Origin: a virus
IMG/VR virus record: IMGVR_UViG_3300048672_000214
Location: 1 to 36,651 of that record
Reading direction: 5' to 3' (one strand)
DNA: 36,651 bases
In this document: piece after piece, positions 1 to 13,946 of the stretch
Position numbering within the stretch: position 1 is the stretch's first letter
Layout: every line of letters begins with the position of its first letter
Program-made: the position numbers and the translations under genes
Notes under the pieces: model-generated
Databases searched by the model: none
What the model was told of the DNA's origin: nothing
What the model saw: the letters and a program-made list of their open reading frames with translations, nothing else

Positions 1-387
1 ATGGGTAAATCTGATAGTTTTAGGGTTTTTTTGAGTGATGCAGGGGAGGTAGTATATCAGGCGCTACTCTCCCACTGCAACGCTAAGTTAAAGATGATGG
101 AGGTCGACCATTACGAGCTGGCTATGTTGGCGAATAGTTTCGCGCTGTATGCTGAGTCGGCTAGGTTTTGTAATGAGGAGGGGGTGGCTATGCCAGCTGG
201 TGATAGTGGTTATGAGCAGATCAGACCACAGTATACCGTAATGAAAAACGAGTATGCTAATATTCTGAAACACTCGGCAAAGTTCGGGCTTAATCCTGGA
301 GATCGGGCAAAGTTCTTCAAGGGCTTGGAGGAGGACAAAAAGAAGAAAGGTTTTAAGTTAGACGGGGATTTAATGAAAGCATCATGA
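1..387 (+). CDS. terS: Terminase small subunit (P27-like)
   Basis: This 128-residue protein would recognise phage DNA and hand it to the large terminase subunit for packaging. The C-terminal half (residues 68-128: a helix around YANILKHSAKFGLNP, then GDRAKFF and a Lys-rich tail) matches the pattern of P27-family small terminases, where a 'LGLTPxxRAKL' segment ends the core. TerL lies directly downstream. The ORF begins at the first base of the window, so an upstream start cannot be judged unless the sequence is circular; the last bases of the window (GGAGGGG ... TAATTG) would then be its leader. The family call is by motif only. Confidence 0.78.
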   Translation: MGKSDSFRVFLSDAGEVVYQALLSHCNAKLKMMEVDHYELAMLANSFALYAESARFCNEEGVAMPAGDSGYEQIRPQYTVMKNEYANILKHSAKFGLNPGDRAKFFKGLEEDKKKKGFKLDGDLMKAS

Positions 388-537
388 AGACGTTCTGGAT
401 TGCGATGACTATTTTATATTTTTTATTGGGTTGTTCTTGTGTTATGGCATAGATGTTTTAGGCCAAAGATTACTATTGAAGATTCTAAATATGTAGATAG
501 AATGGATGTAAAAATTCCTGATAATCTCAAGAAATGA
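384..537 (+). pseudogene. Split small membrane-protein gene between terS and terL
   Basis: An ATG at 384 overlaps the TGA of terS (ATGA) and opens a 22-codon frame (MKTFWIAMTILYFLLGCSCV...) that stops at 452. Another frame is open from about position 405 to a TGA at 535-537 that overlaps the terL ATG, again as ATGA. The interval 384-537 is 154 nt, one base more than a multiple of three. Removing one T from the T-run near 420-426 joins both parts into a 50-residue protein: one N-terminal membrane helix, then a polar tail (HRCFRPKITIEDSKYVDRMD). The neat overlap at both ends suggests one real gene broken by a frameshift, a sequencing indel, or slippage on the T-run. Confidence 0.5.
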
Positions 538-2264
538 GCGCAGCCGAGCAATACGCTTTAGATGTTGTTTCAGGGCGGCAGGTAGCCGGGCGGCTGATTT
601 GTTTGGCGGCCAAACGGTTCCTGTCTGACTTGGAAAGGAAAGACGTTTACTTTGATGAGCGCGAAGCTAATAAGATCGTTTACTTTGTTGAGAACCATTT
701 AAGCCAATGGGAGGGAGACTGGGAGGGGTTATCGGTTAAGTTGCAACCGTGGCAGAAGTTCCATCTTCAACAGCTTTTTGGGTGGATGCGAAAGGATACA
801 GAGACTAGGAGGTTTACTAAATTTTACCTGCAGGTTTCAAAGAAGAACGGTAAGAGTTCGGAGTGCGCATGGCTATCTGTATTCCATTTATTCGCGGATG
901 AGCGGATTAAAACCCCAAAGGTTTACACGGCAGCGAACAACGAAGATCAGGCAAAGATTTGTGTGAACATGGCAGGACGTACGATCGAATGGTCACCGGA
1001 TCTGGCCGCAATGATTGGAGAGGATATTAAACTTAGTACCTATGGCAGCAACATCACGGAAGTCATCCACAAAGGCAGGGGCGGGTTCATCAAAGCCCTC
1101 TCGAAAGAAGGCGGGGATAAGAAAGCCAAAACGAGCGGTGGTAAGCACGGTATCAACGCAAGTTTGGGACTCGTTGACGAGTTTGGAATGTCTCCAGATC
1201 ATGGCGCATCTGGTTCTATCGCCACCTCGATGGCCTCAAGGAAAGAGCGGCTCATGGCTTATCTCACAACGGCCGGATTTAACATGGAGGGTCCGTGCTA
1301 TTCTGAGCTTAGAGAGCAAGGGATAAAAGTTTTAGAGGGATCCATTGTCATGGATAATTACCTCCCTATCATTTATGAGTTAGATAATCCAATAGTAGAC
1401 GGAAAGCCACAGGAAATAACCTTACAATGGTTACTATCCAACGAGCAGGAATGGTACAAGTCAAACCCTAATCTGGACGTTTCGGTTAACCGTGAATATC
1501 TCCGGGAGATGCTGCAAAACGCGGTCACACTTGGAGGCACTACGGAGGTGGAGGTGATGACATTGAACTTTAATAGGTGGATGGATTCCCCTCAGGTATT
1601 TATTCCTTCTGAGGTGTGGGATCGGAACAGCCACGGATTTAAAGAGGAGGATCTTATTGGGCAAGAATGCTTCGGAGGTTTTGAGTTAGTAGGTGCTAAA
1701 GGAATGAGCGCGCTATGCCTGATCTTTCCAGGTGCTGAACTTGCAGCGGTTAAACTTTTCTTTTGGGGACCTTCCGAGTATTTTAAAAACAATACCGATA
1801 GATTTGACAAGGCCAAAGAGTGGGCGCAATTTATAAAAGTAGATGAGGGTAACACAGTAGAAAACGAGTGGGTAATAGATTGGCTTTTGTCTGAGATTGA
1901 AAAATATGATTTACAGTCTTTTGCGTTTCCGAAATTAAAAGAGAATGACGATATTGTGCAAGGTTTAATCAAGGAAGGATTAGAGGGTAACCCTATCAGT
2001 CAGGCGATAGGAGGCATCGGAAACCCTACTACACAATGGGAAGACTTACTGCACGCGGGTAAGATAGAGCATTTTAATAATCCGGTTTTGAAGTGGATGA
2101 ATTCTAATTGTAATGTAATCAGGAAAGAGGCGGGGATAAGAATAGAAAAGCAAGGCAGTCGCGTTGTTGGTATCTCGGCCTGTATCAATGCACTAGCTCA
2201 ATGGAAAACTATTGAAGCAGAAGACGGAAACAATAAACCAGAAATGACAACTTTAAATATATGA
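534..2264 (+). CDS. terL: Terminase large subunit (Terminase_1 / HK97 gp2-like), nuclease site unusual
   Basis: This is the ATP-driven DNA packaging motor. In its 576 residues the ATPase domain is clear: a Walker A-like VSKKNGKS at 101-108, Walker B LGLVDEFG at 211-218 (D215, E216) and the coupling motif LTTAGF at 244-249. The C-terminal half aligns with the RNase H-like nuclease domain, including the typical GKIEHFNNPVLKWMNSN block at 509-525. Positions that are normally Asp in the family appear changed: GGFEL (E384) where GLDLS is usual, FAFP (P466) where 'aaFD' is usual, and RVVG (V545) where 'RIDG' is usual. The protein overlaps its neighbours by ATGA on both sides. Its identity is secure, but loss of nuclease activity is inferred only from the motif comparison. 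Confidence 0.93.
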   Translation: MSAAEQYALDVVSGRQVAGRLICLAAKRFLSDLERKDVYFDEREANKIVYFVENHLSQWEGDWEGLSVKLQPWQKFHLQQLFGWMRKDTETRRFTKFYLQVSKKNGKSSECAWLSVFHLFADERIKTPKVYTAANNEDQAKICVNMAGRTIEWSPDLAAMIGEDIKLSTYGSNITEVIHKGRGGFIKALSKEGGDKKAKTSGGKHGINASLGLVDEFGMSPDHGASGSIATSMASRKERLMAYLTTAGFNMEGPCYSELREQGIKVLEGSIVMDNYLPIIYELDNPIVDGKPQEITLQWLLSNEQEWYKSNPNLDVSVNREYLREMLQNAVTLGGTTEVEVMTLNFNRWMDSPQVFIPSEVWDRNSHGFKEEDLIGQECFGGFELVGAKGMSALCLIFPGAELAAVKLFFWGPSEYFKNNTDRFDKAKEWAQFIKVDEGNTVENEWVIDWLLSEIEKYDLQSFAFPKLKENDDIVQGLIKEGLEGNPISQAIGGIGNPTTQWEDLLHAGKIEHFNNPVLKWMNSNCNVIRKEAGIRIEKQGSRVVGISACINALAQWKTIEAEDGNNKPEMTTLNI

Positions 2265-2461
2265 AAAGATTAGATTTTTTAAAACGGTTATTAGTTATCC
2301 CTGCGATACCAATTATTGCAAAGGAAATAAAAGATAATCCAATTGATGACATAAAACCAATAGTAATAAAACCATATTATTATTCAGCGACTGGAATTTC
2401 AATTAGTGCAAAATTAAATGAAATCAATGAACGCGAACAATCATTTAACAATTTAACATAA
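2261..2461 (+). CDS. Small exported-type protein with Tat-like N terminus
   Basis: A 66-residue ORF that starts inside the terL stop (ATGA). Its N terminus (MKRLDFLKRLLVIPAIPIIAKE) resembles a twin-arginine-type leader: a basic start, xRxDFLK, then a hydrophobic stretch. However, it has K-R-L where Tat signals need R-R, so export by Tat is doubtful. The rest (NPIDDIKPIVIKPYYYSATGISI...) is polar with no domain I recognise. It may alternatively be a small membrane-anchored protein. Its place directly after terL and the overlap suggest translational coupling. Confidence 0.6.
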   Translation: MKRLDFLKRLLVIPAIPIIAKEIKDNPIDDIKPIVIKPYYYSATGISISAKLNEINEREQSFNNLT

Positions 2462-2465
2462 AAAC

Positions 2466-3614
2466 ATGATTAAACTTTTAGCTATCCATCCTATGGAGTT
2501 TGATGGTACGAGTTACTACCGGGCGCATGGGATATTTCCAAACCTGATAAAACAATTCAATCATCAATTAAGGATCGACAAATATCAGGGAGACTTTGGG
2601 CGCGGTTACAATTGGACTGATCTGCAATATTATGACATTCTATTCCTTCAACGGCCTTGCCTGGACGCGGCTAAAAGAATTCGATTAGTCAACTACTGCA
2701 AAGACTTAGGAATTAAAATATGGATTGACTTTGATGATAACTTGTTCGATCTGCCAAACGAAAACAGATTACAGGAAGATGTTACCAACGAAATCCGTAA
2801 GGACATGGTAACTATTCTAAAACTGGCTGATGTTATCACAGTATCTACAAAAGCGCTAAAGGAATTTTTTGCGACCTTAGGGTTAGTGACTGAGGTCGTT
2901 CCTAACGCGCTGAATGAGGATATCACACCAATGGCAGAGGATTACAATACCCCATTAATAGGCGATCCAATCAAATTACTTTGGCGAGGAAGCGATACCC
3001 ATCAAGGGGATTTATATTACAGCCAGAATGAAATTTTCAAGGCCATTGACATTAGACAAAATACTCATTGGCACTTCATGGGTTATAATCCGTGGTTCAT
3101 CACTAACGGCATGGAGAAAGGACACTACACTTATCACAAGTCAGAGGACTTAATGATTTATTTCAGGAACTTACGCAAAGTAAAACCTCAGTTAGTTCAT
3201 TTTCCTTTGATGCCAAACGCTTTGAACTTTGGAAAGTCTAACATAGCTTGGATTGAATCCACGGCAGCCGGAGCGGTTATTATTGCTCCTGACTGGGAGG
3301 AGTGGCGTAAAACGGGAGTAATTAATTACACCTCACAAGAGCATTACGGGGAATTGTTAACTCGTTCACTTGATGGTGATGCAGAGCTTTGGAAACAAAG
3401 CCGGGATTATATAATGGAGAATTTAACGCTGGACAAAGTAAACGAACAGCGAGTTAGAATAATTGAACGGTTACTTGGATTGAGTACGGTGACCATCACA
3501 AATACAGATTTTGTAAATCCAAATTATAAAAACAACTGGGAAAAAATAAGAAACGATATTGATGCAAAGACTTATGAAGGGTTTAGTAATTTACCTGAAA
3601 CAATGATCGAATGA
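2466..3614 (+). CDS. GT-B fold glycosyltransferase
   Basis: A 382-residue protein with the two-domain layout of GT-B (family 4-like) glycosyltransferases. The N-terminal Rossmann half includes YYDILFLQRP and KIWIDFDDNLFDLP at about 57-97, followed by LADVITVSTKAL and VVPNAL at about 118-148, the usual start of the linker to the second domain. The C-terminal half has LLWRGSDTHQGD (about 169-180), a W-H-F-M-G strand, and IAWIESTAAGAVIIAPDW (about 262-279), which corresponds to the E-x7-E donor-binding region. It would transfer a sugar from a nucleotide-activated donor, probably to a cell-surface glycan or virion protein. It is the first enzyme of the sugar cluster between terminase and portal. 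The acceptor is unknown. Confidence 0.8.
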   Translation: MIKLLAIHPMEFDGTSYYRAHGIFPNLIKQFNHQLRIDKYQGDFGRGYNWTDLQYYDILFLQRPCLDAAKRIRLVNYCKDLGIKIWIDFDDNLFDLPNENRLQEDVTNEIRKDMVTILKLADVITVSTKALKEFFATLGLVTEVVPNALNEDITPMAEDYNTPLIGDPIKLLWRGSDTHQGDLYYSQNEIFKAIDIRQNTHWHFMGYNPWFITNGMEKGHYTYHKSEDLMIYFRNLRKVKPQLVHFPLMPNALNFGKSNIAWIESTAAGAVIIAPDWEEWRKTGVINYTSQEHYGELLTRSLDGDAELWKQSRDYIMENLTLDKVNEQRVRIIERLLGLSTVTITNTDFVNPNYKNNWEKIRNDIDAKTYEGFSNLPETMIE

Positions 3615-3739
3615 AAAATATTTTAGAATGGCTTTCTGGAAAGGAATATGTTACTAGATGGGCAATATTGCTACATATTTTTAACACGATTGTAATAGTA
3701 ATAACTTTAATTATAATGTATTTGATATGGCTCTTATAG
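3611..3739 (+). CDS. Small single-span membrane protein
   Basis: A 42-residue ORF. Its ATG overlaps the stop of the GT-B gene (ATGA) and its stop lies 13 nt inside the next glycosyltransferase gene. About 18 N-terminal residues (MKNILEWLSGKEYVTRW) precede one long hydrophobic helix (AILLHIFNTIVIVITLIIMYLIWLL) that runs to the C terminus, so it is predicted to be tail-anchored. Its position between two glycosyltransferases suggests a membrane partner for them or a stand-alone small phage protein. Function is not known. Confidence 0.6.
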   Translation: MKNILEWLSGKEYVTRWAILLHIFNTIVIVITLIIMYLIWLL

Positions 3740-4494
3740 CAATGGCTGCCTACTCGACTGCCGAAAACCAAAAAGACGCGCAACTCCGAAAGACTCTTCA
3801 ATCACTTTGGGAAACCGTGGACTGGACAAAACACAGATTAATGATCTCGGTAAACGGCAGCACAGAGGAAACCCGTGAGATACTTAGAGACTACGAGGAA
3901 ATGATTGAGGACGTAATAGTCAACGACTCGAACATAGGAACGGCAAAAGCGATTAACAAAGTTTGGAAACTTCGCAGGTCCGGTGAACACTGCGTGAAGA
4001 TCGATGATGACGTTGTTATCCATCATGACGGCTGGGTGGATGAAATGGAAGAGGCTATAAATCGGGAGCCTAAGATCGGGATAATCGGACTAAAGCGAAA
4101 GGATTTGATTGAATGCACCACTCACCCAGATACAAACTATCGGAGTGTATTAATTCAGCTTCCACACAAGCCGGGCGAAAGATGGATAGTTATCGAACGC
4201 GCGCGAGGTATAATGGGAACGTGTAAGATGATTAATCACGCTTTACTCGACAAGATAGGCTATCTATATCAGCCATCGGTGTACGGATTTGATGATTCAA
4301 TGTACTCATGTAGGTCTGACATAGCAGGGTTTATAAACTGTTTTTTACCTCATATAAACATAGACCACATTGATCCGGGAGGGACTAACTATACAACATG
4401 GAAACAAGATCACGCAGGTGAAACGTTTTCAAAAGCGAATCAGGTAATTAACGATTATATTTCAGGTAAAAGGCCAATTTACGAAGAAGCATGA
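3727..4494 (+). CDS. GT-A family 2 glycosyltransferase
   Basis: A 255-residue protein of the GT2 type. The N-terminal half has the strand-helix pattern of the nucleotide-sugar domain (LMISVNGSTEETREIL, about 38-53; NDSNIGTAKAIN, about 66-77), ending in the metal-binding DxD-type motif KIDDDVVIH (D93-D95). A second half with RGIMGTCKMINHALLDKIG and YGFDDSMYSCRS (about 158-200) resembles the acceptor and catalytic region with its 'ED/DD' acid pair. It would add a sugar to a surface or virion glycan. The gene overlaps both small ORFs beside it, so the block is probably one transcript. Confidence 0.82.
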   Translation: MALIAMAAYSTAENQKDAQLRKTLQSLWETVDWTKHRLMISVNGSTEETREILRDYEEMIEDVIVNDSNIGTAKAINKVWKLRRSGEHCVKIDDDVVIHHDGWVDEMEEAINREPKIGIIGLKRKDLIECTTHPDTNYRSVLIQLPHKPGERWIVIERARGIMGTCKMINHALLDKIGYLYQPSVYGFDDSMYSCRSDIAGFINCFLPHINIDHIDPGGTNYTTWKQDHAGETFSKANQVINDYISGKRPIYEEA

Positions 4495-4613
4495 AAAATT
4501 CATTTACACATTATGTTTACAAACATGATATAAATACTTATGTCGTGTGCGCTTGGAGTGGATGTGATTTAATTGGTATGTGGCGGGTTAAAAAATTAAA
4601 AGAATGCGTATAG
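4491..4613 (+). CDS. Hypothetical 40-residue protein
   Basis: A 40-codon ORF starting at the ATGA overlap with the preceding glycosyltransferase and ending 10 nt inside the next gene. The peptide (MKNSFTHYVYKHDINTYVVCAW...) has two Trp and three Cys residues and a basic C terminus (RVKKLKEC), with no clear membrane helix. I do not recognise it. The case for it being real is the perfect overlap on both sides, which recurs throughout this operon. Confidence 0.5.
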   Translation: MKNSFTHYVYKHDINTYVVCAWSGCDLIGMWRVKKLKECV

Positions 4614-5209
4614 CTTTATCCTATTCCGGTTACCTTCGCACATGGTCACAGTGTAAGCCAAACCACTACGAGAACATTATAACTCCTGATTGTGATTTGT
4701 ATTTTTACACCTACACGCATGAAGATCCACTATACAAAGAGGCAGATAATAAATATTACTTTACTCGAATACCTCAGGCACTACATGATAACCCATTTGG
4801 TGACCATAAGTTTAACACTAGAAAGGTACCTGAGAACACATCTCACCAAGTTCTTAACCAATGGACGAATAACTTCGTTGGCTTTTGCCTTATCCCGAAT
4901 ACTTACGATATTTACGTAAGGATAAGACCTGATTTGAAGTTCAACGGTAAGCTAAACTTTGCAGATTATAATTGCAGTGAGAATAACATTTACATCCCTC
5001 AGGGAATGGACTTTGGAGGAATAAACGATCAATTTGCTTTCGGTAATCACAAAGTAATGAAGGCTTACTTTTCAGTTTTGATAAATGCTTTTGATTTATG
5101 GCATAATGGTACAATTTTTCACGCTGAAGGCATGCAGTTAGCTAATCTACAAAGTCAAGGTATTAATATTGTTCGTATAGGATCACCTCAACACGATATA
5201 ATAAGATGA
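4604..5209 (+). CDS. Glycosyltransferase-like protein of viral/surface-glycan type
   Basis: A 201-residue protein. The start MRIALSYSGYLRTW, the phrase DIYVRIRPDLKFNG (about 102-115) and GGINDQFAFGNHKVMKAY (about 138-155) match a class of glycosyltransferase-like proteins seen in viruses and polysaccharide loci, in which a Gly/Ser-rich start is followed by a 'RxRPDL' motif and a 'DQFAFG' motif. No classic DxD is evident. It lies inside the sugar cluster and overlaps the next gene by ATGA. A sugar-transfer role is inferred from these phrases and from context. Confidence 0.55.
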   Translation: MRIALSYSGYLRTWSQCKPNHYENIITPDCDLYFYTYTHEDPLYKEADNKYYFTRIPQALHDNPFGDHKFNTRKVPENTSHQVLNQWTNNFVGFCLIPNTYDIYVRIRPDLKFNGKLNFADYNCSENNIYIPQGMDFGGINDQFAFGNHKVMKAYFSVLINAFDLWHNGTIFHAEGMQLANLQSQGINIVRIGSPQHDIIR

Positions 5210-5826
5210 GGTATCACACAATCATACCTATCAACGGAGATAACGAACGAATGGGTAAGTTATTTAAGACTCCCAAACACATGCTTTTATATAATGGACT
5301 TCCATCAATAATTGCAACCACTTCGATCATGAAGGAGAAAGGAAAAGTTAAATGTTTAGTGGGCGATCAGTATTCAGAAATTCCATTTGTTGAAAACCAA
5401 CGAGTAAGAAAAACCAACAACTCAGTTGAAACAGTTTTACAGACTAGCTTACACGTTAGCACTTTTATAATTGATTGCGATGTCATCCCGCTAAAATTAG
5501 ACGAACCAACTACTAACACGGTCTATCTTTTCAAAAATACCACCGGAATAAATCAATACTCTAACTTTAAACTTGATTCAGACGGTTATGTGATCGACTG
5601 CAATGAGAAAGGAGAAGAATTCGAGTGGTGCGGGGCCGGAGTTTATTACTTTGCTGACCAAACTTCGTTTTACGACTCGGCTTATAAAAGCAAATCAATG
5701 GCGGAGATTATCAAACACCAAACAGACTTCGCAAATCTACACAACAGGCCTTATTTCAGATTTAAAGGCAATACAACGAGTAAAATTTTCAGATTTGGCA
5801 CTTTACAGGACATTTTATGCAGTTGA
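5206..5826 (+). CDS. Sugar/choline-type nucleotidyltransferase (NTP_transferase-like)
   Basis: A 206-residue protein. The N terminus IIPINGDNERMGKLFKTPKHMLLYNGLPSI (residues 6-35) follows the family signature GxGxR...PKxLxxxxGxPxI of nucleotidyltransferases that join NTP to a phosphorylated sugar, choline or similar group. A later FIIDCDVIPL (about 86-95) supplies the DxD metal-binding pair. The next gene encodes an HGD-motif kinase, and together they resemble the LicC/LicA or capsule-type pair in which a kinase phosphorylates a small molecule and this enzyme activates it. The substrate cannot be read from the sequence. It overlaps its neighbours at both ends. Confidence 0.65.
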   Translation: MRYHTIIPINGDNERMGKLFKTPKHMLLYNGLPSIIATTSIMKEKGKVKCLVGDQYSEIPFVENQRVRKTNNSVETVLQTSLHVSTFIIDCDVIPLKLDEPTTNTVYLFKNTTGINQYSNFKLDSDGYVIDCNEKGEEFEWCGAGVYYFADQTSFYDSAYKSKSMAEIIKHQTDFANLHNRPYFRFKGNTTSKIFRFGTLQDILCS

Positions 5827-6464
5827 CAGGCGGATTTACTCAAAATATAGTCATGAGACAGGGTGATTTTGTCGATAAAATAGGCAAAACAGCCTCCGAT
5901 GAGGTAGCTTGGTATGCATCTTACTTGGATAAAAACGACATTCCGAATATCGTAAGTAGTAATGAATTGGGCTTTAAAATGGAGTTTTTGGAGTCAAAAG
6001 GACCTGTAAACATCGAAAAAGTGATTGAGATAGTCGAAAAATACAAGCATTACGAGCCTATAAACTGGCTAACATTCCAATTTTACCGGGATCGAATCCG
6101 TTTCCACGTGGAACAATCACCTATTAGCAATGGCGACAAACTTTTGAAGCTACTGGAGGATTTCAGCGTTGACTTTTCATTTGCGCATGGTGATTTATCA
6201 ATCCGGAACATCATCCAGACAGAAACAGGTCCGAAATTAATTGATCCGCTTTATTATCGGAATTTTGGGAGTTATATAGTCGATTATGCAAAACTAGCCT
6301 TTACACTAAAGTTTTTTAACGGTGATGTTGAAGGATTCGAGAGGGTTAAACGACAGGCAAACTTTGAACAGTTTGATATTTTAGTTGCGTCTGAGTGTGT
6401 GAGGGTGGCAACGTACAATAGGAAGTTTGATTTCATTGCTGAAAATCTTGTAAACGAATTATGA
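5817..6464 (+). CDS. Aminoglycoside/choline-kinase-fold phosphotransferase
   Basis: A 215-residue, rather short member of the APH/choline kinase fold. The catalytic loop is FAHGDLSIRNII (H124-G-D126 ... N131), followed by the metal-binding strand KLIDPLYYRN (D143). The short N-terminal lobe has few recognisable nucleotide-binding residues. It would phosphorylate a small alcohol, sugar or choline-like compound that the preceding nucleotidyltransferase could then activate. It overlaps that gene by 10 nt and the next by ATGA, suggesting coupled translation. It is unlikely to be an antibiotic-resistance gene given its neighbours. Confidence 0.68.
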   Translation: MQLTGGFTQNIVMRQGDFVDKIGKTASDEVAWYASYLDKNDIPNIVSSNELGFKMEFLESKGPVNIEKVIEIVEKYKHYEPINWLTFQFYRDRIRFHVEQSPISNGDKLLKLLEDFSVDFSFAHGDLSIRNIIQTETGPKLIDPLYYRNFGSYIVDYAKLAFTLKFFNGDVEGFERVKRQANFEQFDILVASECVRVATYNRKFDFIAENLVNEL

Positions 6465-7207
6465 TACTTGTTTGCTCTTACACCAACGAAAGAATAACAG
6501 AACTTTGTCTTAGGCAACTAGCATTGACAAAATCAAGTCGTTCAGTCGTTTTAGTTTGGGATAATCACTATCCTTTGAACCGTACCGACTTCGTTAAAAA
6601 TATTTGTGATGAATTACATTTCATTTACATGAGTGAAGGCCGTAATATGGGTATGTATCACGCTTATAATACCATGCTAAACTCATGCAATGATGATACT
6701 GTTATTACAATGGATGGCGACAATTTTATAAATCAGTATGAATGGGATAATCAAATAGAATTAGTACTCAAAGATCAAAGCATTGGAACGGCAACACTCA
6801 GAACAAAAGTTAGTGATCGTGAATTGAAAGAAAGAGGGTTTGAATTTACCAATATCAACGGGGTAAATGTTAAGATCACAAAGCAAGCCTGCACTAATAC
6901 TGTTTGTGGATGGAATACAGAGTTTTTAAAGTCAATAGGAGGCATTAAAGGAGGCAAAGAATATTACGGAGGAAATGAGGTTGAGATGTGGAAACACTAT
7001 GTAGAAAAGAAGTGGGCTTATCTTACTGATTACTACGAGTTGACCGAGTTAATCAAGCCTTTACAGGATTGGCAATATGAGCAGTATAAATTGCTTTACG
7101 CTCATAAAGGAATGGGAGGAAGTTTTGAAGATTACCTTAAAACCAATCCTGAACGAATTGAAGATATTGAAACTTTCATATTTAACGAATCAAAATGGAA
7201 AAAATAG
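6461..7207 (+). CDS. Second GT-A type glycosyltransferase
   Basis: A 248-residue protein starting MILVCSYTNERITELCLRQL, like GT2 enzymes. It has SEGRNMGMYHAYNTML (about 58-73) and the DxD motif ITMDGDNFI (D85, D87). GWNTEFLKSIGGIKGG and YYGGNEVEMWKHYVEKKW (about 150-183) fit the acceptor/catalytic part with the usual acidic residues. The C-terminal tail is helical and polar. It would be the second GT2 enzyme of the cluster, so the product glycan probably has at least two or three sugars. It overlaps the methyltransferase gene by 13 nt. Confidence 0.75.
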   Translation: MILVCSYTNERITELCLRQLALTKSSRSVVLVWDNHYPLNRTDFVKNICDELHFIYMSEGRNMGMYHAYNTMLNSCNDDTVITMDGDNFINQYEWDNQIELVLKDQSIGTATLRTKVSDRELKERGFEFTNINGVNVKITKQACTNTVCGWNTEFLKSIGGIKGGKEYYGGNEVEMWKHYVEKKWAYLTDYYELTELIKPLQDWQYEQYKLLYAHKGMGGSFEDYLKTNPERIEDIETFIFNESKWKK

Positions 7208-7788
7208 AACACATCTATCACACAATCCCCAGCCCTCAGGAGTTAAGCTACAAAGACTTTTATTCTGAGATGGTGCAAAAATTCCCTTCAGGATCTTTAA
7301 TGGTAGAGGTAGGAGTTTATCACGGTCGCTCTTTCTCTTACTTGATTATCGAAATGCTTAACGCTGGCAAGAAGTTCGACTGCGTGGCTGTTGACGCTTG
7401 TCCGTGGGAGGGCGAGCCGTGCATTGGATTCCACAAGCACATGGAACCGCTAAAAGATCATTTTCGTGTGATGTTTGAAAAGGTGGATTCATTTGTTGCA
7501 GCAAATAATTTTGAAGATGGTTCAATTGACTTTTGTTTTGTCGATTGTAACCATACTTACCCATTCGTAATACGAGATATAAATGCGTACCTACCAAAAA
7601 TGAAAAAAGGATCAATCCTCAGCGGTCATGATTGGTCTGATGTAGGAGTAAGAAAAGCAGTATATGAAGCATTTGAAATTTCTGGATTTGATGAATATAT
7701 TATACTAGACGGTCGATTTTTATTAGCTGGAAAAGAAAAGAATGTTCACATCGATACTAAACAAGATATATGGTACGTTCAACTTTAA
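7195..7788 (+). CDS. Class I SAM-dependent methyltransferase (Methyltransf_24-like)
   Basis: A 197-residue protein. Motif I is LMVEVGVYHGRSFSYL (residues 35-50, E38-x-G40...G44). An acidic residue closes the second strand (VAVDACPW, D67). IDFCFVDCNHTYPFVIRDINAYLPKMKKGSILSGHDW (111-147) is the typical central part of the Methyltransf_24 group, common next to glycosyltransferases. It would methylate a sugar hydroxyl or a glycan end, perhaps capping the chain. The overlapping neighbours place it in the sugar-modifying operon. Confidence 0.78.
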   Translation: MEKIEHIYHTIPSPQELSYKDFYSEMVQKFPSGSLMVEVGVYHGRSFSYLIIEMLNAGKKFDCVAVDACPWEGEPCIGFHKHMEPLKDHFRVMFEKVDSFVAANNFEDGSIDFCFVDCNHTYPFVIRDINAYLPKMKKGSILSGHDWSDVGVRKAVYEAFEISGFDEYIILDGRFLLAGKEKNVHIDTKQDIWYVQL

Positions 7789-8309
7789 TTGGCAAAAACT
7801 CAGTAATAAGCAACAAGGTATCAATGTATGGTGATATTGAGGTTGGCGACAATGTACGCATTGATGACTTCTGTATTCTATCCGGCACCATCAAAATTGG
7901 CAACAACGTACACATAGCGGCAGGAGTTTACTTGTATGGTGGTGGCGGCATTGAAATAAAAGACTTCGCACAGATTGGCGCAAAATCTACACTTCATTCA
8001 GCCAGTGATGATTTTTCAGGTGAGTATCTAGTTGGGCCAACAAACCAAAACACAAACGTAAAAAGTGCGCCTATCGTATTGGAAGAATATGCGGTACTGG
8101 GTGCGAATTGTGTTGTGCTGCCAGGTGTTACGATCGGAAAGAATACCGCAGTAGGGGCGATGAGTTTGGTAAATAAAAGTTTGCCAGAAAACTCAATCTA
8201 TGGTGGCAGTCCAGCAAGATTTTTAAAAGATCGTAAGCAATTAGTCGAACATTTACCTCACTCAGAATTTGAAAACCAAATAGAATGGCACAAGGAGTCC
8301 ACAAAATAA
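7770..8309 (+). CDS. Hexapeptide-repeat (left-handed beta helix) acyltransferase
   Basis: A 179-residue protein built of imperfect [LIV]-G-x4 hexapeptides: STLIGKNSVISNKVSMYGDIEVGDNVRIDDFCIL (4-37), GTIKIGNNVHIAAGVYLYGGGGIEI (39-63) and the C-terminal YAVLGANCVVLPGVTIGKNTAVGAMSLV (about 107-134), then the loop SIYGGSPARFLK that closes most O/N-acetyltransferases of this type. It would transfer an acetyl or other acyl group to a sugar, plausibly to the amine made by the adjacent aminotransferase. It overlaps the methyltransferase gene upstream and the aminotransferase gene downstream. Confidence 0.85.
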   Translation: MVRSTLIGKNSVISNKVSMYGDIEVGDNVRIDDFCILSGTIKIGNNVHIAAGVYLYGGGGIEIKDFAQIGAKSTLHSASDDFSGEYLVGPTNQNTNVKSAPIVLEEYAVLGANCVVLPGVTIGKNTAVGAMSLVNKSLPENSIYGGSPARFLKDRKQLVEHLPHSEFENQIEWHKESTK

Positions 8310-8917
8310 CCGAACAATTCGAGGCTAAACTTTGTGACTACACTGGCGCGCCTTATGCAGTGGCGGTTGACAATTGCAGTAATGCGCTGTTTTTGGCTTT
8401 GAAATGGTTGGGATTATCAGGGATTGAAATATCAGTTCCAAAACATACTTACCCAGCTGTTCCGTGCGAAGTTATACACACAGGCAACAAAGTAAAGTTT
8501 TATGATTCACCCGAACGGCTAACTGGTTTTTATACACTTGATGGGACTAACGTAATTGATTCAGCATTACACTTTACTGCGGATATGTATATTCCAGGAT
8601 TTAGTATGTGCCTATCATTTACAGGTCCTTACAAACATCTTAAACTAGGTAAGGGAGGCGCAATACTAACAGATAATAAAGCCGCTTACGAATGGTTTAA
8701 ACGTGCTAGATTTTCAGGAAGGCGGGAATGTTCTTATCTTGAGGATGATTTCGATACTTTAGGATGGAATTTTTATATGATGCCTGAAATAGCTGCGCGC
8801 GGTTTACTTCTTATGGATCAATTCTACACTGAGAACGGAAAGAAACATAATGAACCTATTACGCATCGTTACCCGGATTTGAGTAAATTTAAAGTTTATC
8901 AAAATGTCAATTTATAG
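8285..8917 (+). CDS. Short DegT/DnrJ/EryC1-type PLP aminotransferase
   Basis: It resembles sugar aminotransferases, which convert keto sugars to amino sugars with PLP. Signs are YTGAPYAVAVDNCSNALFLAL (about 19-39), VPKHTYPAVPCEV (51-63), the Asp that holds the PLP ring nitrogen (NVIDSALHF, D92), the lysine region SFTGPYKHLKLGKGG (K117 is the likely Schiff-base lysine), and GWNFYMMPEIAARGL (160-174), equivalent to 'GyNxRmselqAA'. At 210 residues it is little more than half the usual 370-400; the spacing in the middle and the small C-terminal domain are cut down. It could be a minimal active form or a remnant with altered activity. Confidence 0.72.
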   Translation: MAQGVHKITEQFEAKLCDYTGAPYAVAVDNCSNALFLALKWLGLSGIEISVPKHTYPAVPCEVIHTGNKVKFYDSPERLTGFYTLDGTNVIDSALHFTADMYIPGFSMCLSFTGPYKHLKLGKGGAILTDNKAAYEWFKRARFSGRRECSYLEDDFDTLGWNFYMMPEIAARGLLLMDQFYTENGKKHNEPITHRYPDLSKFKVYQNVNL

Positions 8918-9122
8918 AAATCAGGCCAAAAGAGCTTACGATTATATCGTTTCAAATGGTGGTGAAAAATTCATTTTAAACGGATTCAATATTTCAGTCG
9001 ATAGACTGGAGGAAGTGATCGAAAAGTCAGTTAAAAAATCAGGTAAGAACGGGTACAAGTGCGCTGATATTATTATCAAAATGTGGGATGAACAAAAAAA
9101 GACAATAGATGCAGCCACATAG
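8904..9122 (+). CDS. Hypothetical protein, last part of the sugar block
   Basis: A 72-residue, Lys-rich, mostly helical protein (DRLEEVIEKSVKKSGKNGYKCADIIIKMWDEQKK). It starts 14 nt before the end of the aminotransferase gene and overlaps the next ORF by 14 nt. No domain is recognised. It may be a small structural or regulatory phage protein rather than part of the sugar pathway. Confidence 0.55.
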   Translation: MSIYRNQAKRAYDYIVSNGGEKFILNGFNISVDRLEEVIEKSVKKSGKNGYKCADIIIKMWDEQKKTIDAAT

Positions 9123-9315
9123 TGAACCGGAATCACAGTGGACGAATAAAGGTTTTAATCAGAGGTTTGAGGAACTGATAAAGTTAGATATTACCTATGT
9201 TGAGGCTTACATCTTAGCAGAGGAGGAGCACGTTAAATTATTCGGCCGAATCAGATACAAGTCTTACGACTCATTCAGGGATTGCAGAAGGAAATTATTA
9301 TTCCCTAACTCATAA
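9109..9315 (+). CDS. Hypothetical protein with YxSYDSFR C-terminal motif
   Basis: A 68-residue protein. The second half, ITYVEAYILAEEEHVKLFGRIRYKSYDSFRDCRRK, is an acidic helix followed by 'LFGRxRYKSYDSFR', a phrase I associate with small proteins found just before the portal gene in phages of Bacteroidota (from memory, unverified). It is the last gene before a hairpin and a 171-nt gap, so it probably ends the first late operon. Confidence 0.6.
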   Translation: MQPHSEPESQWTNKGFNQRFEELIKLDITYVEAYILAEEEHVKLFGRIRYKSYDSFRDCRRKLLFPNS

Positions 9316-9321
9316 ATCAAA

Positions 9322-9354
9322 GCGGCAGGTCAGTATCTTACCCCTGCCTGCCGC
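9322..9354 (+). terminator. Hairpin after the sugar block
   Basis: A perfect 8-bp GC-rich stem, GCGGCAGG (9322-9329) with CCTGCCGC (9347-9354). It can be extended to 11 bp (CAG/CTG) with one bulged base, and is followed by a short CTTCT run. It lies directly behind the last ORF of the terminase and sugar block. The stem is strong but the T-tail is poor, so termination may be partial. Confidence 0.5.
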
Positions 9355-9486
9355 CTTCTAAGCCTTAGATCATCACAACGGATGCGCACACAAATTTAAT
9401 AACTAAATTATTAGTTGTATAACTAAGTTTACAGAATTGCAGATTTTCTACATTCGCCTAGTCGATTATACGGTTTACTTTGTAGC
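9355..9486 (+). promoter_or_regulatory. Leader region of the head operon
   Basis: This gap holds no credible ORF. It contains a 16-bp palindrome with 6-bp arms, AACTAAATTATTAGTT (9401-9416), and a further ATAACTAAG copy at 9419-9426, which could be an operator. TTTACTTTG at 9474-9482, ending four bases before the portal ATG, resembles the Bacteroidota -7 box TAnnTTTG but is one base short and has no TTG at the right distance. A promoter here is therefore likely from position but not proven by motif. Confidence 0.35.
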
Positions 9487-10863
9487 ATGCAAGGACAAAA
9501 ACCGTCTAAGGGTATCATTACACGTATTGCAGAGCGTTTTGGCTATTCCAAAATTGAAAAGCGTACGGGTGGTGTTGGCCTAACTCAAACGGAAGCCTGG
9601 CAGAATATTTTCCCGGGAATGTTTGATAATGTTGGCACATCAAGCACACTACCGTCTATTTCAGTACAATCAGCACAAAGAATTGCAACGGTATTTACCT
9701 GTTTAAACGTTCGCGGTGAAACGGTAGGATCGCTTCCATTCTCTTCCAAGTTAAACACCGATACAGGCGCAGTTACAGACTATAAATCCAAAGTTCATAG
9801 ACTTTTACACGATCGCCCAAATCCAAATATCACGGCCTTTGATTTCTGGTCAACTATTGAGAAATGGAAACTAGCATGGGGTAACGCTTACGCTCGGATT
9901 GTGAGAGATTTCAATTACGAACCTATCATGCTGGAATTATGCGAGCCGTGGGAGGTGAAGATGAAGGAGGTAGAGGAAACGGACGAAATCTATTACGTCT
10001 ATGATGACGAGATTATCAGGAGTACTGACATGCTCCATTTTAAGAACTATTCTTTGGATGGGGAGTGTGGTATTTCCTCTATCAAACAAAACGCCCTAAC
10101 AATGGGCATGAGTTTGAAGTTAAGCCAGTACAATAGCTCGTTAATTGGCGAGCGCCCTTACGGATATTTGACAAGCGAAAAGAAGCCAAAAGACCTTCAA
10201 CAGAAGGGAGAAATGAGGGCTTCATGGGATAAACGCGGATCATTTGACGATGAAAAAGACTTCTCAAACAAATCTGGAGGGCTAGAATTCAAATCTTTCA
10301 CCCTGCCGGCCGATGATGTGGCTTATATCGAAGCCTCTAAAATGACCGATCAAGACATTTACGCCATTTTCCGTATCCCCCCAATTTTTGCACAGAATTA
10401 CGAGCGCGCGCCTTACAATTCAAGCGAGCAACAAGATATAGTTTTTGCTAAATATACTTTGGCAAGCATCCGGGCAATAGAGCAGGAGTGTACCGAAAAA
10501 CTTTACCATGAATCAAACAAGATCACAAACAAACAGTTTGCAAAATTCAGCATGCAGGGACTTTTGAGAGGTGATACAAACACCCGGAAAGAATTCTATA
10601 CAGGACTTTTCAACATTGCGGCAATCACAGCTAACCAGATTTGTGAGTTTGAGGACCTGCCTACTTACGGACCTGATGGCGATAAACATTACGTGCAAGG
10701 TGCTTTGGTTCCGGTAGATATGTTGGCCGATGTGTTGAAAGGTAAGAACGTCCAGCCTCAACAGAAAAGAGAGATCGAGGACGAGTTTAAGAAAGAGTTA
10801 CGTGAGAAAATGAAAACAAAACTAAACGGGCATTACGCTGATATAGCGGAGTTCCTTAACTGA
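9487..10863 (+). CDS. Portal protein (HK97 family)
   Basis: A 458-residue portal, the dodecameric ring at the capsid vertex through which DNA passes. Family features are: the early SVQSAQRIATVFTCLNVRGETVGSLPF (about 57-83), DRPNPNITAFDFWSTIEKWKLAWGNAYARI (about 110-139), the strand ELCEPWEVKM and IIRSTDMLHFKNYSLDGECGISSIKQ (about 178-203), and the late AKMTDQDIYAIFRIPPIFAQNYERAPYNSSEQQDIVFAKYTL block typical of Phage_portal. The length is normal for the family. It is the first gene of the head operon. Confidence 0.93.
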   Translation: MQGQKPSKGIITRIAERFGYSKIEKRTGGVGLTQTEAWQNIFPGMFDNVGTSSTLPSISVQSAQRIATVFTCLNVRGETVGSLPFSSKLNTDTGAVTDYKSKVHRLLHDRPNPNITAFDFWSTIEKWKLAWGNAYARIVRDFNYEPIMLELCEPWEVKMKEVEETDEIYYVYDDEIIRSTDMLHFKNYSLDGECGISSIKQNALTMGMSLKLSQYNSSLIGERPYGYLTSEKKPKDLQQKGEMRASWDKRGSFDDEKDFSNKSGGLEFKSFTLPADDVAYIEASKMTDQDIYAIFRIPPIFAQNYERAPYNSSEQQDIVFAKYTLASIRAIEQECTEKLYHESNKITNKQFAKFSMQGLLRGDTNTRKEFYTGLFNIAAITANQICEFEDLPTYGPDGDKHYVQGALVPVDMLADVLKGKNVQPQQKREIEDEFKKELREKMKTKLNGHYADIAEFLN

Positions 10864-10864
10864 T

Positions 10865-11173
10865 ATGGCAGCAAACGTAATAATGACGCAAAACCCACAG
10901 AGGGTATACATAACGGCAACAAATACCGATCAGACGCTGGACTATTCAAATATTCTAGGATCGGATGATTTCATGGGTACGATACTGATTGATAATATTT
11001 CAGCATCGGTCAGATTCAATACAGCGGGAGCGGTAGACCCTAACTATTCAGGAGTTTACACAACCACAGATAAATGCCTGTTTGATGCAAGACGGAGCGG
11101 ATCAGATTCCAATCTATTGCATTACTATGGCGCTAGCGGTACTAGTTTTCAAGTTTACATATCAACACAATGA
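10865..11173 (+). CDS. Hypothetical virion-region protein between portal and protease
   Basis: A 102-residue protein rich in Asn, Ser, Thr and short beta-strand-like stretches (RVYITATNTDQTLDYSNIL, GTILIDNISASVRFNTAG), with no charged helices. This composition fits an all-beta capsid-surface or head-fibre protein. The position between portal and prohead protease suggests a structural role such as capsid decoration. No family is recognised. It overlaps the protease gene by ATGA. Confidence 0.55.
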   Translation: MAANVIMTQNPQRVYITATNTDQTLDYSNILGSDDFMGTILIDNISASVRFNTAGAVDPNYSGVYTTTDKCLFDARRSGSDSNLLHYYGASGTSFQVYISTQ

Positions 11174-11781
11174 AAGACTACATACAAAGTTTCGATAAAG
11201 CTGAGCGCAGATTTCTATCTGTGGAACTCAGATCAAAAGAGGGAAGGACCGTGGAAGGTTACGCGGCAAAGTTTAACAGCGACAGCGAAGTATTCTATAA
11301 TTCATGGCTTGAAAGAATTGCGCCAGGTGCTTTTGATAACGTCATGGCAGATGATGCCGTGGCTCTTTTCAATCACGATCCAAATTTCATCTTAGCGCGC
11401 AACAAAGTAAACATGACTTTGACGCAAGATGAGACAGGTCTAAAATATTCTTTCGAGGCGCCTAATACCACAGCCGGTAACGATCTTTTAGAGAACCTTA
11501 AAAACGGCAATATCCGTCAAAGTTCTTTTGCTTTCACAGTGGCAGAGGAAAAGTGGAAACACGCTGAAAAGAAAGGCGATCTAAGTGTGAGGACCATAAC
11601 AAAAGTCGAAAGGCTTTACGATGTTTCCCCGGTGACTTATCCGGCATATCCAGACACCACAGTTGGCAAACGTTCTTTTGATGCGATGAATCAACAAGAA
11701 CTTGAAAAAGAAAATCAGGCGAAAGCCTATTTAATAGAAGTAGAACAAAAAAAACACGAATTATTTAAACTAAAAAAGTAA
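11170..11781 (+). CDS. Prohead protease (HK97 family, peptidase S78)
   Basis: A 203-residue serine protease that cleaves the scaffold domain from the major capsid protein. The core has EGRTVEGYAAKFNSDSEVF (about 24-42), ERIAPGAFDNVM (about 49-60), the catalytic His in VALFNHDPNFILAR (about 66-79), the catalytic Ser in GNIRQSSFAFTV (about 115-126), and LYDVSPVTYPAYPDTTV (about 155-171), the usual last strand. It lies between portal and major capsid protein as expected. The C-terminal 20 residues are Lys/Glu-rich. Confidence 0.93.
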   Translation: MKDYIQSFDKAERRFLSVELRSKEGRTVEGYAAKFNSDSEVFYNSWLERIAPGAFDNVMADDAVALFNHDPNFILARNKVNMTLTQDETGLKYSFEAPNTTAGNDLLENLKNGNIRQSSFAFTVAEEKWKHAEKKGDLSVRTITKVERLYDVSPVTYPAYPDTTVGKRSFDAMNQQELEKENQAKAYLIEVEQKKHELFKLKK

Positions 11782-11782
11782 A

Positions 11783-13186
11783 ATGGAAAACATTGCGACC
11801 CAAATTAAAGGCCTGAAAGAAGAGAGGGCCGGCAAGATCACCGGAATGGATGGCCTTGTCAACAAAATGATCGGAGAAAAACGGTCATTGACTTCTGATG
11901 AACAAACTCAATACGATGCTATGAAGGCAGAAGTAGAGAGCATTGATAAACGCATGGCTATCCTGGAAGAAACAGAGAAACGCCAATTAGCAACCGCTAA
12001 ACCTGCAGGATATTCAGGTGCCGGTTCCGAAGGTGGAGACACTGGAGAAACTGAAAGACGCGAAAAACAAAAAATGTATGATAAGTGGACTTGGAAAAGA
12101 GCACTTACAATCGGAACTGTTCGCGGTGCAAGACGTGACGGAGTTGAGGACGAACTTGACAAAGAAGAGCGTAAAACAATGCTTGAATCAGGCGTGAGTG
12201 AACTTTCTAACGAAAGTATCTTAGCTCCAGCGCAAGTATTCCAACGCGCACGTAATATCCAAAGACGTGATATGGACGCCACCACAGCCACAGCAGCTCC
12301 AAGCAACGAAGGATCATTCACGATTCAAACAAACGTTGAGGGTATCGTTGATGTGTTCTTGCCAGAGATGGTGGTCGGAAAACTGCCCATCATGAGAATG
12401 AATAACCTTCGCGGAAACGTTCAATTCCCTCAGTCTCAAACTTTGCCAGCTGCAGGCTGGAACACTGAGAACGGAACAGCCACAGAGAAAACTCCAAGAT
12501 TTGCAAAGTTGAATCTTAGCCCTAAGAGATTGGCGGCTTATATTCAACTTTCAAATCAGTTGTTAACTCAATCAGAGGCTAACATCTCCCGTTTCGCAAA
12601 TCGTTTCCTTGTTCAAGCTTCGGCTATTGAATTGGAGAAAGTGTTTTTGAAAGGTGGTGGTTCAAACGAGCCTTCCGGTATCCTTGCAAGCACTTCAAAC
12701 TATACTTTGCTTTACGCTGGTGATGCCGCTAACAACGCGGTAAATGCTAACGGTTCACGTCTGGTTTGGGCTGACTGGGTTAAACTTGTTTCAACCCCTA
12801 AGACCTCCAACTCTCCAGATGGTCAGGCTTACGTGACTTCGCCATCCATCAAAGGACGCGCGCAGATCACCCCAAGACAATCTTCAGGCGTTGAGGGCAA
12901 CTTCATCCTGCAAAATTGGAACAGCGGTGTAAACGGATACCAGGTACTTGGAACAACCAACATGCCTGACACTTATTCTAAAGGTGGTTCAACTATATTG
13001 TCTGCCATCATCTTCGGTGACTGGTCACAATCGGTTATCGCTTCATGGGGTGGAATGGAAATCGGTGTAGATCCTTATGTAAACATGAAAGAAGGTTTGA
13101 CCAACGTTGTGTTAAACTCTTACATGGATTGCGGAGTTTTGAATCCTGCGGCTTTTGCGGCAATTAAAGACGCTCAGTCATACTAA
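11783..13186 (+). CDS. Major capsid protein (HK97 fold) with N-terminal scaffold domain
   Basis: A 467-residue HK97-type capsid protein. Residues 1-75 form a charged coiled coil (IKGLKEERAGKITGMDGLVNK ... AEVESIDKRMAILEETEKR), the delta or scaffold domain that the protease removes. A Gly/Ser-rich linker (SGAGSEGGDTGE) follows, then an RRD-rich region. The mature shell domain starts near TIQTNVEGIVDVFLPEMVVGKLPIMRMNNLRGNVQFPQ and runs through VFLKGGGSNEPSGIL and the late GDWSQSVIASWGGMEIGVDPY. Crosslinking by Lys and Asn as in HK97 cannot be decided from this sequence. Confidence 0.93.
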   Translation: MENIATQIKGLKEERAGKITGMDGLVNKMIGEKRSLTSDEQTQYDAMKAEVESIDKRMAILEETEKRQLATAKPAGYSGAGSEGGDTGETERREKQKMYDKWTWKRALTIGTVRGARRDGVEDELDKEERKTMLESGVSELSNESILAPAQVFQRARNIQRRDMDATTATAAPSNEGSFTIQTNVEGIVDVFLPEMVVGKLPIMRMNNLRGNVQFPQSQTLPAAGWNTENGTATEKTPRFAKLNLSPKRLAAYIQLSNQLLTQSEANISRFANRFLVQASAIELEKVFLKGGGSNEPSGILASTSNYTLLYAGDAANNAVNANGSRLVWADWVKLVSTPKTSNSPDGQAYVTSPSIKGRAQITPRQSSGVEGNFILQNWNSGVNGYQVLGTTNMPDTYSKGGSTILSAIIFGDWSQSVIASWGGMEIGVDPYVNMKEGLTNVVLNSYMDCGVLNPAAFAAIKDAQSY

Positions 13187-13365
13187 TGACAATTAGATTC
13201 ATCAAGGACCCGACAGGGAAATATAGTCTGTGTTATAACATCGGGGAGGAAATAGACCTCCCCGATTTACAGGCTAGGGAACTGATTGAAGACGGTTACG
13301 CTATTCCTTTGGAGTTGCCAAAACCTGACAACGCAATGAGTAAAAAGAAGACTGAAAAACGTTGA
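13186..13365 (+). CDS. Small head protein after the major capsid protein
   Basis: A 59-residue ORF whose ATG shares a base with the stop of the capsid gene. The sequence IRFIKDPTGKYSLCYNIGEEIDLPDLQARELIEDGYA follows a short pattern ('F.kdptGkf.l.y..Ge...l....A.eLie.GyA') typical of small proteins between major capsid protein and head-tail connector in siphophages; they may be head-completion or decoration factors. It overlaps the next gene, which begins with TTG at 13362. Confidence 0.7.
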   Translation: MTIRFIKDPTGKYSLCYNIGEEIDLPDLQARELIEDGYAIPLELPKPDNAMSKKKTEKR

Positions 13366-13946
13366 ACCCAGTAAAACAAATAACGCCAAGTACTTTAGAA
13401 ATCGTTACGTTAACGGAGGCTAAAGCACATTTGAAGGTGACTTCAACGGATGAAGATACGCTTATTCAAAGCTATCTGAATGCGGCTGTTAGGCGTTGTG
13501 AGAATTACCGGCAATCGGTTATTATGTCTTCTGAGTGGGAAGTTTATTTGCGTCAATGGTCTGCAAACGTTAACCTTCAAAAGTACCCGGTAACAGCGAT
13601 AAACAGCGTCAAGTATTACGACACAAACAACAATCAGCAAACAGTAACACCAAGCGCAACAACTTACAGGCTTTTAGATTTTAAGGTTCCGGCCCGTTTA
13701 GAGTTTGATAACACTTACTCTTTTCCAAGTCTTTACAATCGTGAATATCCGATCGTGATTAACTATCAGGCTGGCTACACTTACAGCGCATCGGCTAACT
13801 ATGCGTTAATAAAAGAGGCTGTTTTCATGGAGCTAGGAACTTATAATGAGATCCGGCAGAATGAAATTTTAGGAGTTGGTTTGGCTGGCGTTCAGATTAA
13901 AAATAGTTCAATGGAATTGTTAGACGCTGAATGTTTGTGGTTATGA
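13362..13946 (+). CDS. Head-tail connector (phiE125 gp8 / HK97 gp6-like)
   Basis: A 194-residue protein that would form the ring below the portal. The N-terminal helical pair VTLTEAKAHLKVTSTDEDTLIQSYLNAAVRRCENY (about 16-50) is the mark of this family. It is followed by strands (WEVYLRQW, YPVTAINSVKYYD) and a helix (ALIKEAVFMELGTYNEIRQNE). The start is TTG, overlapping the stop of the previous ORF (TTGA); the next ATG lies well inside the conserved part, so TTG is preferred. Confidence 0.85.
   Translation: MNPVKQITPSTLEIVTLTEAKAHLKVTSTDEDTLIQSYLNAAVRRCENYRQSVIMSSEWEVYLRQWSANVNLQKYPVTAINSVKYYDTNNNQQTVTPSATTYRLLDFKVPARLEFDNTYSFPSLYNREYPIVINYQAGYTYSASANYALIKEAVFMELGTYNEIRQNEILGVGLAGVQIKNSSMELLDAECLWL

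Follow-up and report, generated by a model that had tools for sequence, protein, structure and literature searches.

The virus record IMGVR_UViG_3300048672_000214 of IMG/VR, which was analysed over its whole length of 36,651 bases (hereafter the window), carries a block of genes for sugar-modifying enzymes at positions 2466-8917, between the genes of the large terminase subunit (TerL) and the portal protein. Our best reading of the sequences is that this block represents one allele of an exchangeable sugar-modification island, which would be located in the TerL-portal gap of a lineage of tailed phages. As its function we propose soluble tailoring of an amino sugar together with glycosylation of virion proteins, as in the mycobacteriophage Corndog; with the virion acceptor being presumed, we give this reading a probability of roughly 0.5. 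The kind of gene set is already known, and what would be added here is the exchangeable island at the TerL-portal gap and one allele with a conserved miniature DegT aminotransferase. A literature search, in which the coverage of subscription papers was slight, gave no account of a TerL-portal sugar island or of the miniature DegT protein. The block consists of nine open reading frames (ORFs) of 179-382 amino acids, which fill 2466-8917 within a TerL-portal interval of 7.2 kb. All nine are located on the plus strand, as the initial annotation of the window had stated. The overlapping arrangement it had also described is found for the last seven ORFs alone, which are joined by overlaps of 4-25 nt from position 4604 onward, and gaps of 112 and 109 nt follow the first and the second ORF, respectively. 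A chance artefact can be excluded because of the family matches and because relatives of the ORFs are present in other viral contigs. No near-identical DNA was found in 50,697 phage records.

The contents of the same gap were compared among phages related by TerL. The search for relatives used eight patterns, six of them short peptides and two profiles, and gave 31 plus 4 loci in viral contigs and one in genome contigs (36%). Profile matches with less than 30% identity were dropped (L118-L141 in genome contigs, L164-L207 in viral contigs), as were L022, L025, and L027 with identical TerL, so that 33 distinct relatives were kept. In each of them the portal gene was located by profile and the gap was measured; Pfam and NCBIfam were run on 20 representatives of the 80 gap ORFs, and the remainder was assigned by BLAST clustering. 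Sugar-modifying genes are present in the gap of 18 of the 33 relatives, and the gaps of 15 are nearly empty (0.26-0.52 kb). Nine gaps contain a glycosyltransferase (GT)-like gene together with an asparagine-synthase-type (AsnB-type) amidotransferase (PF00733), accompanied by a methyltransferase in four of the nine and by a left-handed beta-helix (LbH) protein and a PIG-L deacetylase in two. Six gaps combine the same GT-like family with a WbuX-type N-acetyl-sugar amidotransferase, whose L005 representative matches TIGR03573 with E 6e-43, below the cut-off of that model. Among these, L152 additionally has an LbH protein and L020 a formyltransferase, whose closest model is that of dTDP-4-amino-4,6-dideoxyglucose formyltransferase (NF005755, E 2e-57, below cut-off). 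The gap of L002, the nearest relative by TerL (80%), encodes TOD1/MUCI70-like and GT-D glycosyltransferases, two Methyltransf_24 proteins, and an HNH protein, and a sulfotransferase is present in the gaps of L030 and L032. The initial annotation had named a scattered or decayed block in relatives as the outcome that would speak against it; instead, exactly this position is occupied in the relatives by different sugar-modifying sets or is empty. With the exception of the LbH protein, the block genes of the window have no BLAST relative in the gaps of the 33 relatives. In phage records, the AsnB-type protein of L012 matches 11 records with about 22-28%, mostly short unannotated fragments, and the conserved GT-like gene of L012 gave no match.

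There is some inheritance of these gap contents, because the six gap states require 13 changes on a TerL tree with 34 rows, which is below all 200 shuffles (mean 17.0; as low in 0/200). The AsnB label alone requires 8 changes and is at chance level (shuffled mean 8.1; 315/500 as low). In several pairs the contents differ between kept flanks: L145 (AsnB-type) and L152 (WbuX-type) share 73% in TerL and 64% in the portal protein, L021 (AsnB-type) and L023 (empty) 78% and 66%, and L028 (empty) and L030 (sulfotransferase) 67% and 55%, respectively. In other pairs the portal has changed too, including the window and L002 with 80% in TerL and 24% in the portal protein, which makes the junction a module breakpoint as well; the portal proteins share 22-38% in 5 of the 12 pairs compared. 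A small ORF, which is located at 9109-9315 in the window (plus strand), was found by profile search in the gaps of 12 of the 33 relatives, seven of which are otherwise empty. It comes after the sugar set in the window and in both L008 and L018, but before it in L002, which indicates insertion on either side of this ORF. Fast turnover of the sets and a module breakpoint at the same junction are also what would be expected if the gap were a neutral cargo hotspot and the sugar genes were passing host genes without a shared role. The GC content of the block ORFs (0.35-0.43, vs. 0.41-0.46 for TerL, portal, protease, and major capsid protein), a weak sign of separate origin, would fit as well. However, neutral cargo is unlikely, as the gaps are not filled at random: sugar-type enzymes occur in each of the 16 long ones, and 15 of them pair one conserved GT-like gene with an amidotransferase. 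Moreover, the nine AsnB-type proteins all keep Cys2 and SGGxDS, and all six WbuX-type proteins keep SGGxDS and the CxxC pairs. The pairs tested all show far fewer non-synonymous than synonymous differences, with synonymous sites near saturation.

The allele of the window is characterized by its last ORF (8285-8917, plus strand), which encodes a predicted DegT/DnrJ/EryC1/StrS aminotransferase of 210 amino acids (PF01041, 67.2 bits vs. a cut-off of 19.8). Here and for all other block proteins, Pfam matches were judged against curated cut-offs. Full two-domain chains of the DegT family have about 360-440 residues, a length that this miniature protein does not reach. Its residues 9-74 and 106-176 align with residues 34-100 and 177-245 of the 374-residue protein 8vr3, compared to which it is without about 45 internal and about 115 C-terminal residues. 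Relatives are encoded by 483 stretches of viral contigs, and the best 80 of these 483 loci were analysed. They contain 82 ORFs, as two loci hold a second copy (45-46%) that was kept in the alignment, and trimmed to the start of the window protein these ORFs have 207-215 amino acids. D92, which we take to be the pyridine-binding aspartate, and K117, which aligns with the Lys of HPRKTLTTGEGG in 8vr3, are present in 84 of 84 aligned rows, and S111 in 99% (the window protein is counted twice). Judged by this alignment, the small size is not local decay, because the relatives keep both the size and D92 and K117. An AlphaFold model based on 22 rows reached a pLDDT of 85 and a pTM of 0.84, with residues 148-160 below 50. 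For this model, the 50 top-ranked PDB entries in the Foldseek listing are sugar aminotransferases and related pyridoxal phosphate enzymes (TMq 0.55-0.64, TMt 0.28-0.37), and superposition with WlaRF and GDP-perosamine synthase gave Z 17.4 and an rmsd of 3.9 over 196-197 aligned residues. If the assignment is true, the protein would be an unusually small sugar aminotransferase that is present in hundreds of viral contigs. Within 6 kb of the miniature DegT gene, 61 of the 80 loci have a member of a NeuD/PglD-like LbH cluster and 17 have one of a second LbH cluster; GT-like clusters are found there as well (all clusters named by eye). One of 395 genomes from the phylum of L117, a Flammeovirgaceae genome introduced below, encodes a 213-amino-acid homolog (47%) beside an LbH acyltransferase and a GT2 protein (L208, 70-2115). 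With this copy in a cellular gene cluster, the assumption that the miniature protein is restricted to viruses was rejected. The assumption that its clusters always lie within head genes found no support either; L050 and L084 gave a hint by eye, and PHROGs and Pfam recognized no structural family there.

The adjacent ORF at 7770-8309 (plus strand) encodes a predicted LbH sugar acyltransferase (PF00132, Hexapep, 68.7 bits, above cut-off). Its best solved relatives are the PDB entries 3vbi-3vbp (3vbk/3vbi, E 2e-42 over residues 7-164), which carry galactoside O-acetyltransferase as file name and which we take to be AntD, the enzyme that N-acylates dTDP-4-amino-4,6-dideoxyglucose in anthrose synthesis. 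The same entries rank first for the LbH protein that adjoins the miniature DegT protein in L050, and the pairing of both genes recurs in other viral loci. Pathways to N-acyl-4-amino-4,6-dideoxyhexoses are represented by AntC/AntD, VioA/VioB, and PglE/PglD. Similar to these, the window has a DegT gene next to genes of an LbH acyltransferase, with 3vbi-3vbp as its nearest relatives, and a methyltransferase, but its DegT protein has 210 instead of about 370 residues, a dehydratase is missing, and the genes are located in a phage. As a joint product of the aminotransferase, the AntD-like acyltransferase, and the methyltransferase, we infer an O-methylated N-acyl-amino-deoxyhexose.

Among the enzymes named by the initial annotation, the aminotransferase, the acyltransferase, two GT2 glycosyltransferases, a further glycosyltransferase (by PHROG), and the methyltransferase are well-supported predictions. 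The putative methyltransferase (7195-7788, plus strand) is S-adenosylmethionine-dependent and matches PF13578 (Methyltransf_24) with 63.4 bits vs. a cut-off of 26.3. Its designation as DNA methyltransferase, suggested by phrog_2675, was not adopted because PF13578 is a domain of small-molecule methyltransferases in general, and because the phrog_2675 match spans a part of the 599-position profile. The first ORF of the block (2466-3614, plus strand) encodes the glycosyltransferase-like protein GT1 with a DFDD motif (phrog_7162, E 3.8e-22), which has relatives in L113 (33%), L114 (30%), and L211 (34%). In the stretch 471-5835 of L114, an otherwise different phage contig, the relative is located just upstream of terminase- and portal-like ORFs (by eye). 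The second ORF (3727-4494, plus strand) encodes a predicted GT2 protein with a DDD motif (PF00535, 37.2 bits vs. a cut-off of 23.3) and has a 50% relative in L211, where both relatives lie at 2682-6383 beside a methyltransferase-like and a further GT-like ORF. The other GT2 protein (6461-7207, plus strand) has a DGD motif and matches PF00535 with 30.5 bits vs. 23.3. The ORF at 4604-5209 (plus strand) possibly encodes a glycosyltransferase-like protein; it matches phrog_13607, a family of unknown function, with E 1.7e-9 and DUF7796 with E 4.8e-5, below cut-off. A GDNERMGKLFKTPK motif suggests a possible sugar nucleotidyltransferase at 5206-5826 (plus strand). Searches of Pfam, PHROG, NCBIfam, and PDB gave nothing informative for this protein, with a match to phrog_3980 (unknown function) at E 3e-6; its single-sequence fold was unusable (pLDDT 30), and no relatives were found in viral contigs or in the 395 genomes of the L117 phylum, where the empty answer carries no weight. 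The ORF at 5817-6464 (plus strand) with its HGDLSIRN and IDP motifs may encode an APH/choline-kinase-like small-molecule kinase (Choline_kinase E 0.036, TCAD9 E 3e-4, both below cut-off). Database searches gave nothing more informative for it, including one of PDB. No relatives of it were found, and for the 395 genomes this again carries no weight.

The set of DegT protein, LbH acyltransferase, methyltransferase, and glycosyltransferases supports the suggestion of the initial annotation that a modified amino sugar is built and attached. The starting sugar would be a host nucleoside diphosphate (NDP)-4-keto-6-deoxyhexose or, alternatively, a sugar activated by the putative kinase and nucleotidyltransferase of the block itself. 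The miniature DegT protein would then aminate this starting sugar, the LbH enzyme would N-acylate the aminated sugar, and the methyltransferase would O-methylate it. Two to four soluble glycosyltransferases may assemble the sugar or sugars and attach them, late in infection, to virion proteins of the same operon. Gene content, intact motifs, exchange of sets among relatives, and lack of membrane segments are observed, and we infer the order of reactions, the substrate, the late expression, and the virion acceptor. The position inside the packaging and head genes suggests co-expression with virion genes. A precedent are the Corndog-cluster (cluster O) mycobacteriophages, for which a methyltransferase and three glycosyltransferases between portal and protease are described and methyl and glycan groups on the capsid are proposed as their role (PMC4351075). 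According to a later paper that credits Freeman 2023, glycosylated proteins are reported for Corndog, Che8, and Myrna, in the case of Corndog virion proteins (PMC12363180). The map of Firecracker shows the same order of portal, methyltransferase/GT, and protease as described for the cluster. In the window, too, an S-adenosylmethionine-dependent methyltransferase and soluble glycosyltransferases are encoded co-directionally inside the packaging and head block, but between TerL and portal, and the Corndog set is without aminotransferase, acyltransferase, kinase, or amidotransferase. The rarity of such sets among head genes, as assumed initially, has therefore to be qualified by this precedent and by the 18 relatives with sugar-modifying genes in the gap.

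The same enzymes could instead alter precursors of the host surface polysaccharide and thereby cause receptor masking or superinfection exclusion, which is the main rival and rather unlikely. The substrates of the soluble enzymes would then be nucleotide sugars or lipid-linked units, which host machinery exports. Enzymes of these kinds also occur in loci for O-antigen and capsule (NCBIfam matches of WcaF, NeuD, PseC, LegC, and WbuX kinds). Moreover, the tail gene run closes with the gene of a SASA-type carbohydrate esterase (24287-25771; PF03629, 61.6 bits), possibly for deacetylation of a receptor glycan, which suggests that host glycans matter to the phage. Gratiaviridae likewise have a glycosyltransferase gene between portal and major capsid protein, for which PMC8008677 favors modification of the host capsule, but it is accompanied there by a HipA-type kinase and an AAA ATPase. 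However, the block of the window sits among head genes, and no flippase, polymerase, or polyprenyl transferase is among the families matched in it. The 19-residue hydropathy maximum of its proteins is 1.52, whereas three membrane-type proteins of the window reach 1.71-2.22. The absence of membrane-type segments, flippase, and polyprenyl transferase leans towards cytoplasmic acceptors, and of the two targets considered initially, virion decoration seems the better one. Gtr-type serotype-conversion clusters encode a membrane flippase and a polyprenyl-phosphate glycosyltransferase, and the block differs from them in having no hydropathy peak above 1.52 and neither of these families. Such clusters belong to temperate phages and lie beside integrase and att site. 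No integrase was found among the families matched in the window, including its right arm, which would make lysogenic conversion unlikely if the record is complete.

That the glycosyltransferases glycosylate or hypermodify virion DNA is very improbable. Phage glycosyltransferases can act on DNA (PMC12619734), and a C5-cytosine DNA methyltransferase is encoded at 27960-28817, but no base hydroxymethylase or similar attachment-point enzyme was found among the ORFs scanned, and the acyltransferase, aminotransferase, and amidotransferase families that are present tailor sugars.

Several observations weigh against virion glycosylation by a complete amino-sugar pathway. The nucleotidyltransferase, the kinase, and the fourth glycosyltransferase of the initial annotation are suggested by motifs or weak matches. 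As no 4,6-dehydratase was found in the block, the substrate would have to come from the host. For the GT-like gene that is conserved among the relatives, matches to GT2 proteins are weak (PF00535 E 0.006; PDB 3bcv E 0.002), and its assignment to one family with the GT2 proteins of the window is unsupported, with probabilities of 8.5% and 0.4% in profile comparison. The glycosyltransferases of the Corndog-cluster phage Firecracker seem nearly unrelated to those of the window in sequence; gp36 and the GT2 protein at 3727-4494 share a weak similarity (phmmer E 1.7e-4, obtained with few sequences), and every other comparison gave E >0.05. Finally, the miniature DegT gene is also present in large phages, in gene clusters where no head genes are visible, and in the one cellular cluster, and thus is no marker of virion decoration by itself. 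The Flavobacterium phage immuto (MW353176) resembles the window in having a miniature DegT gene (61%), an LbH-like 'pilin glycosylation protein', a methyltransferase, and several glycosyltransferases in one run, but there the cluster lies among small non-structural genes and additionally comprises an epimerase and a longer WecE-like aminotransferase.

With virion glycosylation as the preferred function, it is tentatively possible that the TerL-portal junction serves the lineage as a dedicated and exchangeable 'serotype' island, a counterpart of O-antigen loci that acts on the virion. Sister phages would then wear differently amidated, N-acylated, formylated, methylated, or sulfated sugar coats, and one allele would use a miniaturized, catalytically complete DegT protein that lacks the C-terminal domain and has a mass of about 23 kDa. 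If true, phages swap a whole sugar-modification set at one fixed site, as bacteria swap O-antigen loci, and the junction would be a place to seek virion glycosylation beyond mycobacteriophages. Furthermore, selection for sugar-coated particles without a vertebrate immune system would become testable by comparing sister phages that carry the set with those that do not.

The island is flanked on the left by the terminase small subunit (1-387) and TerL (534-2264, plus strand; PF03354 E 4e-25, PF20441 E 8e-10), followed by a small ORF of 66 amino acids (2261-2461, plus strand), for which tblastn of the fetched loci gave the self-match alone and no relatives. On the right, a functionally unassigned ORF of 72 amino acids (8904-9122, plus strand) and the conserved small ORF precede the portal gene (9487-10863, plus strand; phrog_12 E 3.7e-75), the protease (11170-11781), the major capsid protein (11783-13186), and the tape measure protein (16147-17877). 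A promoter and terminator scan of 1-13500 gave counts close to those of shuffled sequence and was uninformative. No terminal repeat was found, and the completeness of the record is thus unproven. Starts of Bacteroidota genes are usually without a GGAG/AGGA-type ribosome-binding core, and this core is absent at 11 of the 12 starts inspected by eye. As, in addition, among titled contigs of bacterial genomes a single one has a TerL relative above 30% and comes from a Flammeovirgaceae metagenome-assembled genome (L117), the host is probably a member of the Bacteroidota.

In the tail gene run, a protein of 1243 amino acids (17877-21608) has no Pfam or PHROG match. The C5-cytosine methyltransferase gene is overlapped by an ORF for 224 amino acids on the same strand in another frame (27998-28672). 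Three pairs of direct repeats about 1.2 kb apart (29403-29492/30647-30736, 29924-29961/31129-31166, and 29984-30021/31188-31225) lie around and at the ends of the ORFs 29439-29927 and 30695-31132, which share GGVILNSKTS in their C-termini and look like a duplicated unit with different middles. The DUF6291 protein at 26874-27536 contains an NVNVTVND run that is encoded by repeats of 12/18-nt units at 27140-27213.

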